NCBI GenBank assembly: GCA_947074185.1
Contig: CAMTOO010000014.1
Location: 1 to 32,471 of the forward strand
Reading direction: 5' to 3'
Source of the DNA: an uncultured Negativicutes bacterium
GTDB lineage: Bacteria > Bacillota > Negativicutes > Acidaminococcales > Acidaminococcaceae
Length of the DNA stretch: 32,471 bases
This document shows, one piece after another, positions 4,811 through 31,781 of the stretch. The notes beneath the pieces are model-generated. The model made no database searches, was not told where the DNA came from, and saw nothing but the letters and a program-made list of their open reading frames with translations. The translations under genes were made by a program, and so were the position numbers. Each line of letters starts with the position of its first letter. The first letter of the stretch is position 1.

Positions 4811-5308
4811 ATGGCACAAGGAAGAAATAAAAAAGAGCTTGCAGGAGTAAATCTTTTAGGAAAAGAAACTAATTATCCGACAGATTACGATCCAAAAGTA
4901 TTAGAAGCTTTTAAAAACAAACATCCTGGTAATGATTATTTCGTAAAATTCAATTGCCCAGAATTTACAAGTCTTTGTCCAATGACAGGGCAACCTGATT
5001 TTGCAACAATCTATATATCTTATGTACCAGACAAGAAACTAGTAGAAAGTAAATCTTTAAAAATTTATTTATTTAGTTTCAGAAATCACGGTGATTTTCA
5101 TGAAGATTGCGTGAATATCATCATGAAAGATTTAGTGAAATTATTACAACCTAAATATATTGAAGTATGGGGCAAATTTACTCCACGTGGCGGTATATCA
5201 ATAGATCCATATGCAAACTATGGCAAACCTAAAACTGAATGGGAAGAAGTTGCTAAAAAGCGTATGCACTATCATGATATGAATCCTGAAACTGTTGATA
5301 ACAGATAA
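4811..5308 (+). CDS. queF: NADPH-dependent 7-cyano-7-deazaguanine reductase (preQ1 synthase)
   Basis: A cytoplasmic enzyme of the queuosine pathway reducing the nitrile preQ0 to the aminomethyl preQ1 with two NADPH. The 165-residue length fits the short unimodular QueF class of Bacillus. The catalytic Cys56 sits in [12 protein letters not shown] with the conserved Asp63. The QueF motif ESKSLKIY, the [10 protein letters not shown] block and the FTPRGG motif follow in the right order. GGAGAT precedes the ATG. It is co-transcribed with queT. The other queuosine genes (queC, queD, queE, tgt, queA) are not in this window. Confidence 0.96.
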
Positions 5309-7590: not shown

Positions 7591-9516
7591 ATGAACAAAA
7601 AAATACTTGCTGATCTTGATGTGGCTGGTAAAAAAGTTCTTGTGCGTGTTGATTTCAACGTGCCAATGGATGATAAAGGCAAAATAACTGATGATACTCG
7701 CATAACAGCATCTCTTCCTACAATAAAATATTTATTGCAACATAAAGCAGCTGTTATTTTAATGGCGCATTTAGGAAGACCAAAAGGTACTAAAAATTTA
7801 AAATACTCTTTAGCTCCTGTAGCTAAACATTTAAGTAAACTTTTAGGAAAGAAAGTTGCTTTTGCTACTGATTGTGTGGGTAAATCTGCAAAAGATGAAG
7901 CAAAGAAATTAAAATCAGGACAAGTTTTATTGCTAGAAAATTTACGCTTTCATAAAGAAGAGGAAGCTAATGATATGAAATTTGCAGAGAAGTTAGCTTC
8001 TCTTGCAGACTTGTATGTTAATGATGGTTTTGGTGTGTCTCATAGAGCACATGCTTCTGTAGATGGAGTAACGTACTTCATTCCATCAGCGGCAGGACTT
8101 CTCTTAGAAAAAGAAATCCAGTTTATTGGAAAAGCTGTATCTAATCCAGCACATCCATTTGTTGCTATTATTGGTGGTGCAAAAGTTTCTGATAAAATTG
8201 GTGTTATCGAAAATCTTTTAGATAAGGTAGATACACTTCTTATTGGCGGAGGAATGGCAAATACATTTCTTGCTGCTCAAGGTTATAAACTTGGTAAATC
8301 TTTAGTAGAAAAAGATAAAGTTAAATTAGCAAAAACACTTATTGAAAAAGCTAAGAAGCAAAAAGTAAAATTACTTTTACCTACAGATGTGGTAATGGCT
8401 GAAACTTTTGCTCCTGATGCGAAGCATAAAGTAGAAAAAGTTGCTAAATTAGACCAAAAATATATGGCCCTTGATATTGGCCCAGCTACTTGTAAAGCTT
8501 ATAAAGCAGCATTGCAAGGCGCTAAAACTATCGTTTGGAATGGTCCGATGGGCGTATTTGAAATGGATGCTTTCTGCAAAGGTACAGAAGCAGTTGCTGA
8601 TGCAGTTGCAGCAGCAAAAGGCATCAGTATTGTAGGTGGTGGTGACAGTGTTGCTGCTATTGAAAAATTGAAATTAGCTAAAAAGATTAGCCATATTTCA
8701 ACTGGTGGCGGAGCTTCGCTAGAGTATCTAGAAGGAAAAATTCTTCCTGGTATTGCAGCACTTGATAATGTTCGTCGTTATATGATTGCTGGCAACTGGA
8801 AAATGCATAAGACTGTTGGAGAAGCATTAGAACTTGCTGAGGATCTTGTTTATGAAACAAATGGTACTCTTAATGAAGTTGTAATATTCCCTCCGTTTAC
8901 AGCACTTGAAAGCGTTGCAGATGCTATTGATGGTAAACATGTAGGGTATGGCGCACAAGATCTTCATTATGAAGATGAAGGTGCATATACTGGAGCAATT
9001 TCTGGCAAAATGATTTTTGATATTTGTGCTGAATATGTTCTTGTTGGCCATAGTGAAAGACGTAATGTTTTTGGTGATACGGATGATATCGTTGCTAAGA
9101 AAATGCGTGCTGCATTCCGCAATGGTCTAAAACCAGTATTATGTGTTGGCGAAAATTTAAAAGAACGTCAAAGTGGTCAAGCTGTTCGTAAAATATCAGC
9201 TCAACTTACTAAAGCTCTCAAAAATATCACAGCAGAAGAAGCTAATGTTTTAGTTGTTGCTTATGAACCAATCTGGGCGATAGGTACAGGTAAAACTGCT
9301 ACAGCAACAGATGCTAAAGAAATTTGCGCAGCTATTCGTGAAAAACTAGCAAAAATCTATTCTCCTGAAGTTGCGCGCAAAGTGCGTATTCTTTATGGTG
9401 GTAGCGTTAATGAGAAAAACTCTGGCGAGTTCAAAGTAGATGATATTGATGGAGTGTTAGTTGGCGGCGCTAGCCTTAAAGCTGATACTTTTGCTACAAT
9501 CGTTAGAAGTTTTTAA
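7591..9516 (+). CDS. pgk-tpiA: Fused phosphoglycerate kinase / triosephosphate isomerase
   Basis: One 641-residue frame carries two complete glycolytic enzymes. Residues 1 to about 395 are phosphoglycerate kinase (ADP + 1,3-bisphosphoglycerate to ATP + 3-phosphoglycerate): [10 protein letters not shown] near the start, [26 protein letters not shown] and the nucleotide-site [10 protein letters not shown]. Residues 398-641 are triosephosphate isomerase: GNWKMH with Lys404, the general acid/base His487 in VGHSERR and Glu559 in [12 protein letters not shown], then the phosphate-gripper LYGGSV. The kinase's usual C-terminal LPGIAAL runs straight into [12 protein letters not shown] with almost no linker. 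The fusion order matches the bifunctional protein of Thermotoga. The ATG at 8782 could in principle also start a separate isomerase but has no good ribosome-binding site. Shine-Dalgarno AAGGAG lies before the ATG at 7591. Confidence 0.95.
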
Positions 9517-11060: not shown

Positions 11061-12356
<1,296 letters not shown>

Positions 12357-25088: not shown

Positions 25089-25434
25089 TGGTGGAGATGA
25101 GGGGAGTCGAACCCCTGTCCGAAAATATTGTTATATAACTTTCTCCGAGCGCAGTCTTTTATTTAAGTTTCGCTTCTTAATCGCCAAAAGACAGGCTTTT
25201 AAGTTGCTAGTTTGTAGATTTAATTCAAAGAAGCCAAACAATTCTTTGAACGATCCCGAATAGCGTCATCCTTTCCTCTCCTACGGGAGGCGGATCAGAA
25301 GGATGTTAGCATTAAGCTGCTAAAGCGTAATTTGAATCTGCGTTTAAATTTAAACGTCCACCGTTTAACGTGTTAATGGAATCACGGCTCGCTTATCATA
25401 CACCACCTATCCCCGTCGAAACCGGTACATCCCC
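25089..25434 (-). ncRNA. ssrA: Transfer-messenger RNA
   Basis: A 346-nt one-piece tmRNA. Its 5' end (GGGGATGTACCGGTTTCGACGG) pairs with the 3' end (CATCTCC followed by the encoded ACCA) as a 7-bp acceptor stem. The T-arm GGGGTTCGACTCCCC is plain near 25100-25120. The message ends in GCAGATTCAAATTACGC and TTTAGCAGCTTAA, encoding ...ADSNYALAA-stop (25312-25341), the typical ALAA degradation tag; the resume codon may lie a few codons earlier. GC-rich pseudoknot helices follow (CTCCCGTAGGAG region at 25277-25290). It works with SmpB (18535) and RNase R (16138). No clear terminator follows within the 157 bases before the methyltransferase gene, which carries only that gene's leader. Confidence 0.97.
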
Positions 25435-27333: not shown

Positions 27334-27362
27334 TTGAAAAAAGTTTACGAAAATGATATAGT
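27334..27362 (+). promoter_or_regulatory. Promoter of the tandem secreted-protein operon
   Basis: TTGAAA (27334-27339) and TATAGT (27357-27362) are 17 bp apart. An untranslated leader of about 90 bases follows, with a small TAGAC/GTCTA hairpin near 27412-27426 and no riboswitch that I recognise. Confidence 0.7.
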
Positions 27363-27458
27363 ATTTATAAAGGATAGATAGTTAATTTTGGGAGACTTTA
27401 ATTATTGCGGATAGACTAAATGTCTAAAATAAATAAGTAAATAAAAGGAGGAGTGTTT

Positions 27459-28376
27459 ATGAGGAGAGAACGTAAAATTTTATCAATGTTAATGGCGGTG
27501 ATGATGTTATTATCAATAACATTCACGGCGGAAGCGTTTAATATTGGTAAAGCAGTGGGGGATGCAGTAAAGAAATCAACTAGCGGTACGTCTGTGCAAA
27601 TTCCAGGCGGTAAGCAACAAGCAGATCCAAATGTTAAAATGACAGGTAACACACCAACAGTCGCATATCTAGAGGCATTAATATCTTATCCATTAGGCTA
27701 TAAATTCAAAGGTTCCCGAGGTCATGCTGTTATTGGGCAAAACTTAGAATTAAAATCTGATGGACGATTAGATACTATAACTGGCGATATTCTTGAACAA
27801 GAATCATTTGAGTATAATTACAATGGTAGACCTAATGCCGAAGGTAAAGGTGTTTCCAGACTTAATAACCATAATACTGCATTAAGATGGGGAAAAACCT
27901 ATGATGTTGTTATTTGGGCAGAAGGATTCAATCCAATTATTTTTAAAAATGTAGAAGTGGGAAAAGCTGTAAAAGGCGAAGCAACAGTTGCTGCAGATGG
28001 TACGCATGAAAAAGTACAAATTCTTAAAGATGGCAAGAATATTAGTGGAGCTGGCGCAGGCGGTTTTGTTAAAGTCACAAGTGGAGGAGCACCTCTAGAT
28101 TTTGTAACAATTTTAGTGGGACCAAATGTTCAATTAGAACGTAAGGATCGTACAGCTCATATTATTGGAACTCATCAATCAGCTGGCATGCGCAGATCAA
28201 AGGAAATTGGTACTTATGATATAGGCACTGCCTATTCTGGCAAGGTAAATTTAATATTCTGGAAACTAGGTTATGTTACTCAAATTAGAACTGTAACATT
28301 GCCTTCTGGCACAGCATTTCCAACTGTTGATATGCCAAAAGAAGGCGGAGATAATTCTATAAACTATGTTAAGTGA
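27459..28376 (+). CDS. Hypothetical secreted protein, first of a tandem pair
   Basis: I do not recognise the family. ATG 27459, six bases after AAGGAGGA, gives 305 residues. A strong signal peptide (MRRERKILSMLMAVMMLLSI...AEA) is followed by FNIGKAVGDAVKKST, closely matching the mature start of the next gene. The mature part is rich in glycine and beta-strand pattern. Two segments, TYDVVIWAEGFNPIIFKNV (~145-165) and KVNLIFWKLGYVTQIRTVTL (~262-281), resemble each other and may be repeats of an Ig-like or carboxypeptidase-regulatory-type sandwich; this is inference. There is no lipobox or LPXTG, so it would be periplasmic or exported. It has its own promoter and is 27 bp upstream of the second gene. 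Confidence 0.8.
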   Translation: MRRERKILSMLMAVMMLLSITFTAEAFNIGKAVGDAVKKSTSGTSVQIPGGKQQADPNVKMTGNTPTVAYLEALISYPLGYKFKGSRGHAVIGQNLELKSDGRLDTITGDILEQESFEYNYNGRPNAEGKGVSRLNNHNTALRWGKTYDVVIWAEGFNPIIFKNVEVGKAVKGEATVAADGTHEKVQILKDGKNISGAGAGGFVKVTSGGAPLDFVTILVGPNVQLERKDRTAHIIGTHQSAGMRRSKEIGTYDIGTAYSGKVNLIFWKLGYVTQIRTVTLPSGTAFPTVDMPKEGGDNSINYVK

Positions 28377-28403
28377 TGAAATTTATAGCTGAAGGAGTAT
28401 TTT

Positions 28404-29030
28404 ATGAGAAAACACATCAAAACTCTTAGTGCTTTTTTAGTACTGCTGGCATTAGTGCTAGTACCATTAACAGCAGATGCTTTTAAGCTAGGTAAAGTCC
28501 TAGGCGATGCTGTTAAAAGCAGTACAAAACAACAGGTTACTGGTGATGCAGAAAAATCTTCTAGACAAGAAGAAGTGGATCGTCATATGGAAAGTTTATA
28601 TGCAAAACGCAGTGATAAAGTAGATGTTAGAACGTATCATATTTGGCAACATACTTCGCCTAGACCTGCTCAATATGCTAGTAAGTTTGGTGACCCATAT
28701 GTTGGGGAAGTTATGATATTTGTAATTCAAGAAGGTTCCGTATCTAAAGATCCAAATGATGAAAGCGTTGATATAGCAAGGGGTCATAAGATTATTTCTC
28801 AACAGACTATAATGTCTGGTCCAGGAAATAATACTATACAAGTTAGTGTTCCTGACATGCCTTATATATCAATACATTACTGGGCAAAGGCTGTTGGTTC
28901 GGGACCAGGAGGTTCTAGAAGAGAATTTTTTGAAGGAAAAGATTTGGGATATAATTTGATTATAACTAAAGAACGTGGAACTCCTTATAGGACTATCCAT
29001 CAAACAATCAAAGTAGAATCTAAAAACTAA
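28404..29030 (+). CDS. Hypothetical secreted protein, second of a tandem pair
   Basis: An unknown exported protein of 208 residues. A signal peptide (MRKHIKTLSAFLVLLALVLV...ADA) precedes FKLGKVLGDAVKSSTKQQ, which matches the mature N-terminus of the preceding gene in about 9 of 13 positions. A charged, probably helical segment (GDAEKSSRQEEVDRHMESLYAKR) leads to a beta-rich domain (YVGEVMIFVIQEGS, NTIQVSVPDMPYISIHYWAKAVG). The two proteins are otherwise not obviously similar, so the shared N-terminus looks like a common module. AAGGAG lies eight bases before the ATG. It ends at a bidirectional terminator. Confidence 0.78.
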   Translation: MRKHIKTLSAFLVLLALVLVPLTADAFKLGKVLGDAVKSSTKQQVTGDAEKSSRQEEVDRHMESLYAKRSDKVDVRTYHIWQHTSPRPAQYASKFGDPYVGEVMIFVIQEGSVSKDPNDESVDIARGHKIISQQTIMSGPGNNTIQVSVPDMPYISIHYWAKAVGSGPGGSRREFFEGKDLGYNLIITKERGTPYRTIHQTIKVESKN

Positions 29031-31271: not shown

Positions 31272-31781
31272 ATGAAAAAAGGAAATTTATTGTTAACTGT
31301 CTTAATGTTTATTGTACTTTGCTTTACAACAGTTGGTTTTGCAAAGGAAGATTCTATGGCACCATCAATGTATCGTGAAGGTGTACGTGCTATAGATGCC
31401 GCTAAAGCAGAAATCCCAGAAACTTGTGTTTTAACTAGTTATGATGTTGATGGCGAAAAAAGTGTTGTAGCTTTTTATGACCAAGCAACTACAGACAGAT
31501 ACAAAGTAAAAGTATTGACTGGAACATCTAAAGTTCTCGAAATTGAAAGAAAAGGTGCAACTTTTGTAAAAGGTAGTACTATGGTCAACTTATCTGTTGA
31601 AGATATTAAGAAGATAGTATTAGCACATTTCCCAGATGCTAAAAATATTGAAGTAGAGCTTGATTCTGATGGTAACAACAAATACTATGAAGCTAAATTC
31701 GTGTCAAACAGATTTGCAGGTGAGTTAGAAATGAACCCTGTAACTGGCGCGATTTTTGAATTAGATTTAAAATTTTATTAA
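31272..31781 (+). CDS. Secreted PepSY-like protein
   Basis: A 169-residue exported protein. The signal peptide (MKKGNLLLTVLMFIVLCFTT...GFA) is followed by two repeats of PepSY type. The second (SVEDIKKIVLAHFPDAKNIEVEL, YYEAKFVSNRFAGELEMNPVTGAIFEL) is typical; the first, around YDVDGEKSVVAFYDQATTDRYKVKVLTGTSKVLEIE, is weaker. PepSY domains occur in peptidase propeptides and in small periplasmic proteins of unclear role. AGGAGGGG precedes the ATG. Co-transcribed with the DnaA-domain-like gene; ends at a strong terminator. Confidence 0.82.
   Translation: MKKGNLLLTVLMFIVLCFTTVGFAKEDSMAPSMYREGVRAIDAAKAEIPETCVLTSYDVDGEKSVVAFYDQATTDRYKVKVLTGTSKVLEIERKGATFVKGSTMVNLSVEDIKKIVLAHFPDAKNIEVELDSDGNNKYYEAKFVSNRFAGELEMNPVTGAIFELDLKFY

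Follow-up and report, generated by a model that had tools for sequence, protein, structure and literature searches.

Two adjacent exported proteins of an Acidaminococcaceae bacterium share a short mature start on different bodies

The ProtA-ProtB gene pair

In a diderm bacterium belonging to the Acidaminococcaceae, two adjacent plus-strand genes, ProtA and ProtB, are read from their open reading frames as encoding exported proteins that begin, directly after the signal peptide, with nearly the same residues and then continue into different bodies (Table 1). Judged by codon comparison, this shared start, termed the module here, is real and selected at the peptide level. Both genes lie in the window, which is the whole 32,471-nucleotide stretch of DNA that was analysed.

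The pair is preceded by one good promoter-like site, which is sigma-70-like with a TG before the -10 element, and the gap between the two genes is 27 nt. The upstream neighbour encodes an Asp-Al_Ex-type permease (Pfam) and the downstream neighbour is a tyrosyl-tRNA synthetase-like gene, both on the minus strand. Because promoter-like and terminator-like sites bracket the two genes, the gap is 27 bases and the flanking genes are on the opposite strand, ProtA and ProtB likely form one two-gene transcript; the earlier proposal that they are transcribed together from one promoter is retained at that strength. No Rfam RNA element was found near the pair, and the window's one match, a tmRNA gene (RF00023, 194.5 bits), lies elsewhere (25089-25434, minus strand).

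Table 1. Coordinates of the ProtA and ProtB features in the window.
Feature	Position	Strand	Description or basis
Promoter-like site TTGAAA-17-TATAGT	27334..27362	+	Upstream of ProtA-ProtB; 10/12 consensus matches; consensus match only
Shine-Dalgarno-like AAAGGAGG of ProtA	27445..27452	+	Sequence
ProtA gene	27459..28376	+	305 aa, stop included; ORF
ProtA signal peptide MRRERKILSMLMAVMMLLSITFTAEA	27459..27536	+	N-terminal positive charge, then a hydrophobic stretch and a cleavage-type AEA site; by eye
ProtA module FNIGKAVGDAVKKST	27537..27581	+	Common to ProtB
ProtA domain 1, residues 65-178, TTR-like	27651..27992	+	Smith-Waterman z 9.4 against L091 second-gene piece; hhalign against A4
ProtA domain 2, residues 187-305, CarboxypepD_reg/TTR-like	28017..28373	+	Weak Pfam match; Succiniclasticum relatives, z 16
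Shine-Dalgarno-like TGAAGGAG of ProtB	28390..28397	+	Sequence
ProtB gene	28404..29030	+	208 aa, stop included; ORF
ProtB signal peptide MRKHIKTLSAFLVLLALVLVPLTADA	28404..28481	+	Read from sequence
ProtB module FKLGKVLGDAVKSST	28482..28526	+	Common to ProtA
ProtB body	28542..29027	+	Relative in none of class genomes, Pfam, PDB sequences, phages, plasmids
Terminator-like stem-loop	29050..29077	+	12-pair stem, 4-nt loop, T-rich tail; between ProtB and convergent tyrosyl-tRNA synthetase-like gene

Shared start of the mature proteins

Both signal peptides are predicted by eye to be 26 residues long and end in AEA or ADA, with the module following directly. The sequence-only reading had described two adjacent genes whose products are almost alike after the signal peptide and different thereafter, and both parts of this description are confirmed. 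The modules FNIGKAVGDAVKKST and FKLGKVLGDAVKSST are identical at 10 of 15 residues in a fixed register, for which the chance probability is 1e-9 to 2e-7 (binomial, per-position match rate 0.06-0.10, fixed register). BLASTP aligns the two proteins over residues 1-41 only (19/41 identical, E 3e-7 for the pair), and no other significant match is found beyond these residues.

Codon identity between the two genes across residues 24-41 is 83%, 83% and 22% at positions 1, 2 and 3, with 34% expected at the third position from composition, and the 12 identical residues of this stretch use the same codon in just 4 cases; spanning 18 codons, the comparison gives a clear sign of selection on the peptide and not a measured rate. 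The likeness of the modules is therefore not that of a recent duplication, as the peptide was preserved through the randomisation of its synonymous sites. The pair may nevertheless have originated by duplication, and it could be the relic of an old tandem event in which the 5' part stayed alike, one body was replaced or diverged past recognition, and the segment has no special function. The genes are adjacent, in the same orientation and similar at the 5' end only, and ProtB has a marginal Smith-Waterman match to ProtA domain 1 (z 3.4, shuffle p 0.009, one of several comparisons), all of which would suit such a relic; neutral retention, however, would not keep residues whose third codon positions are randomised, and this explanation is considered unlikely.

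A lipobox with cysteine at +1 is absent from ProtA and ProtB, and both have F at this position. The hydrophobic moments of the two modules are 0.49 and 0.46 (shuffle p about 0.03 each, the two values not being independent) and their mean hydrophobicities are 0.03 and 0.08. The earlier description of the module as amphipathic thus holds weakly for ProtA and ProtB and does not extend to related starts, since the Succiniclasticum version described below has a moment of 0.06 and is not amphipathic, and the versions encoded on contig L091 are likewise not clearly so. In the structural models, which are single-sequence or shallow and of low confidence, one continuous helix runs through signal and module (residues 2-67 in ProtB and 2-39 in ProtA). 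Such a helix would be expected if the segment were the late part of the targeting signal, with an extended or uncleaved signal peptide holding the proteins in the inner membrane by an N-terminal helix, and the corresponding motif in the M48 and VGG families discussed below also merges into a hydrophobic helix. Against this, the canonical AEA and ADA sites exactly precede F, and the segment contains K, D and S/T and is far less hydrophobic than the signal core, so that an extended signal is regarded as improbable.

Domains of ProtA and the body of ProtB

ProtA is predicted to be an exported protein with two domains of the transthyretin (TTR)/carboxypeptidase-regulatory (CarboxypepD_reg)-like group, and as such is a novel two-domain variant of a loosely defined exported TTR-like group. 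This reading follows from the matches of domain 2 to Succiniclasticum proteins (Smith-Waterman z 16) and of domain 1 to an L091 protein and, by hhalign, to the family profile A4 (probability 86 across 28 columns). Relatives of domain 2 are found in several Succiniclasticum genomes, and the named matches place the family in Acidaminococcaceae. The Pfam match of ProtA to CarboxypepD_reg (PF13620) is weak (E 0.0033; 18.2 bits, under the gathering score of 32.3). ProtA is absent from the Pfam match list of DUF4198 (PF10670), and a scan of genome contigs with full-length ProtA gave no match. Direct comparison of domain 1 with domain 2 is not significant (p 0.33); the idea that the two are an internal duplicate was dropped, as both merely resemble members of one group.

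ProtB is, by the same kind of comparison, an orphan. Its body has no relative in 59 genomes of the family or in 350 Negativicutes genomes, and no match in Pfam, PDB sequences, or phage or plasmid records. It also lacks the relation to the single Succiniclasticum-type domain that ProtA domain 2 exhibits. A reading of ProtB as a third TTR-like domain was rejected (hhalign probability 0.3%; Smith-Waterman p 0.009 with domain 1 only).

Neither protein contains an SLH domain (PF00395) in the Pfam search, in which the OmpM-like control from L194 scored 9.6e-13, or a Peptidase_M48 domain or HExxH zinc motif by Pfam and sequence. The model of ProtA, built from eight alignment rows, predicts strands with a mean pLDDT of 47, and Foldseek returned no PDB match with E <= 0.001; the single-sequence model of ProtB is beta-rich but poor (pLDDT 54), and Foldseek found nothing significant in the PDB. 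Of the earlier expectation that both bodies are beta-rich and belong to no recognisable family, the first part is supported for ProtA by homology and otherwise rests on these low-confidence models, which were not counted as evidence of fold, and the second stands for ProtB and falls for ProtA.

Relatives in Acidaminococcaceae

Among the closest relatives of ProtA are secreted Succiniclasticum proteins that belong to no curated family (e.g., L084:5001-5483 of Succiniclasticum ruminis DSM 9236). In these proteins the signal peptide and the start GFN[IVM]GN lead into one domain. Like them, ProtA has a signal peptide followed by an FN[IVM]G-type start and a related domain, domain 2, the relation covering most of the domain length with 25-29% identity; the profile E-value on ProtA is 2.7e-40, ProtA itself being a profile member. 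Unlike ProtA, they have one domain instead of two, their segment reads GNVLKGKPT without GDAVK, and they are encoded by single genes without a ProtB neighbour. Domain 2 and these relatives weakly match CarboxypepD_reg and DUF4198, both TTR-like beta-sandwich domains; every match is under the curated cut-off (for DUF4198, the Succiniclasticum relatives score 14.6-22.6 bits with a gathering score of 34), and the N-terminal segment lies outside both families.

The Acidaminococcaceae MAG UW_MP_ACID4_1, of another genus, has a comparable pair of neighbouring genes on contig L091 (4435-4971 and about 4995/5001 to about 5524). The mature starts, GFNIGGILNKLPGVS and GFNIGGVLNKIPGVS, have the common pattern GFNIGG[IV]LNK[LI]PGVS, and the bodies behind them differ. 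That of the first gene is CarboxypepD_reg/fn3_3-like and near the L019 protein from another family of the class (Smith-Waterman z 16). That of the second is related to ProtA domains 1 and 2; the assembly interrupts its frame near 5275, and the gene was compared in pieces only. As in ProtA and ProtB, neighbouring exported proteins have a near-identical mature start and different bodies; unlike them, the first body does not correspond to ProtB and the shared segment has other letters. Since their third codon positions are 65% alike, the L091 genes are younger or more constrained. Among the sequences compared, this pair is the best support that the ProtA-ProtB arrangement is no one-off.

Similar starts across Negativicutes

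A looser A-F-x-[LIF]-G motif directly after the signal peptide is present in M48 peptidases (L006, L021, L043, L070 and the bacterium's own L130, EAFNLGTFNAIMDSTK). It also occurs in a small family spread across the class, designated VGG; 79 of the 111 good genomes have this family, and its starts include AFGLGDILKVGG. Many members of the Negativicutes M48 peptidases (BepA/LoiP-like) and of the VGG family thus have an F-x-[LIF]-G start as ProtA and ProtB do; their bodies are unrelated to those of the pair, and the likeness of the starts is one of pattern. In both families the motif is variable and heads a longer hydrophobic helix, and the first residue of M48 proteins can also be I, L, G or S. 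Within the same genome the M48 protein retains only AFNLG and the VGG member (L210) has lost the motif, beginning AGVITSILKTGG. As the motif runs into a hydrophobic helix in both families and is frequently missing, these starts do not establish a single portable tag.

Of 30 VGG loci of about 3.4 kb, 7 have an SLH-type motif like that of OmpM close by; a dominant OmpM neighbourhood for the family was rejected on this count, and the association is best described as occurring sometimes. In two distant genomes, genes for exported proteins that carry MTVLDKxAAVEK close to the N-terminus (L194:315-1238 and L188:2015-2929) adjoin VGG-family and OmpM-like genes. These proteins match no Pfam family and may be a third component of an envelope cluster.

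A degenerate DNA pattern gives about 150 matches class-wide and about 60 in the reversed control (about 2.7-fold), of which only about 13 to 15 were seen behind a signal peptide; most of those read were not. In a signal-peptide and module profile run against 250 genomes, signal-peptide look-alikes dominate below the known relatives, and weak matches were counted only if individually read. These matches and the presence of F-x-[LIF]-G starts on unrelated families would fit convergence, in which a signal-peptidase or translocon preference gives many exported Negativicutes proteins an F-led, glycine-rich hydrophobic helix and the pair is an extreme case. Among 119 proteins with signal peptides listed heuristically from the loci retrieved, a small sample biased by the choice of loci, the F-x-[LIVMF]-G start is nevertheless confined to the M48, VGG and ProtA/ProtB groups; in the unrelated neighbours A, E, P, N and Q are the usual first residues, and no protein begins with this motif. 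Convergence is accordingly given a low probability.

The sequence-only reading had suggested looking for the module in other Negativicutes. Similar starts do occur in Acidaminococcaceae, including the L091 pair, with looser ones on the M48 and VGG proteins, but the strict form GKxxGDAVK is confined to ProtA and ProtB among the sequences examined. The exact pair is not conserved, because the ProtB body is without a relative in the 350 genomes, yet further proteins with a similar start exist; of the two outcomes that would together have counted against the sequence-only reading, one half is thus observed. A conserved two-protein system, as the earlier reading envisaged, is not upheld, ProtB being an orphan and the GDAVK half of the module being present only here.

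Proposed role

The sequence-only reading, upheld in part, saw in the module a possible sorting, assembly or partner-binding tag. A tentative proposal, the likeliest of those considered here and held as quite possible but short of probable, is that the segment docks co-expressed envelope proteins on a membrane or partner via a short post-cleavage helix. ProtA and ProtB would be Sec-exported to the envelope from one transcript, and cleavage at A-F would expose a 15-18-residue, probably helical segment selected at the peptide level. A linker would connect the segment to a beta-type body that differs between the two proteins, comprising two TTR-like domains in ProtA and the orphan body in ProtB. 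In place of a lipid anchor, it may put both proteins at the same membrane face or partner, where the two bodies could cooperate. The proposal starts from the observed segment with its synonymous randomisation, the gene arrangement, the homology of ProtA and the adjacent pair in the second genus. Counted in its favour are the restriction of the BLASTP alignment to the N-terminus, the codon pattern, the L091 pair, the Succiniclasticum starts, the M48/VGG starts with none in unrelated neighbours, and the low-confidence helix models. Counted against it are the restriction of GKxxGDAVK to one pair, the low Succiniclasticum moment, the motif loss in L210 and the retention of only AFNLG in L130, and the orphan status of ProtB.

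No LolA or LolB homologues have been found in Negativicutes (PMC5007114). Lipid modification of the outer membrane (OM) proteins of Veillonella parvula was looked for and not found, in an analysis that its authors call inconclusive, and an M48 peptidase is among the OM proteins of that study (PMC5491611). Because LolA/LolB homologues were not found and no lipid-modified OM proteins have been demonstrated, non-lipid attachment in Negativicutes is a live question. A broader and far more doubtful extension is that a lipid-free N-terminal helix, led by F-x-[LI]-G and uncovered by signal peptidase, serves Negativicutes as a shared means of attaching unrelated envelope proteins, partly filling the missing-Lol gap, with ProtA and ProtB as one co-expressed set. 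If true, such a helix, short, exposed by cleavage and common to exported proteins that are otherwise unrelated, would offer a simple and testable candidate for OM attachment in this class. If the segment is mere signal-peptide context, the pair would be ordinary, two small beta proteins that are exported and of which one is specific to its lineage.

Other features of the window

Several further features of the window lie outside the pair. By eye, a long protein (15-2210) contains repeated GG-GTVVTMN-type units and an autotransporter-like C-terminal part. A 641-residue frame (7591-9516), also recognised by eye, reads as phosphoglycerate kinase followed by triosephosphate isomerase (a PGK-TPI fusion) and is situated in a run of glycolytic genes. 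An enolase-like frame (11070-12356) is split into 11070-11336 and 11349-12356 in different frames, by a frameshift or an assembly error; the gene is expected to be essential. An exported protein with a PepSY domain (Pfam) is encoded at 31272-31781, and PepSY proteins are listed among the OM proteins of Veillonella (PMC5491611).
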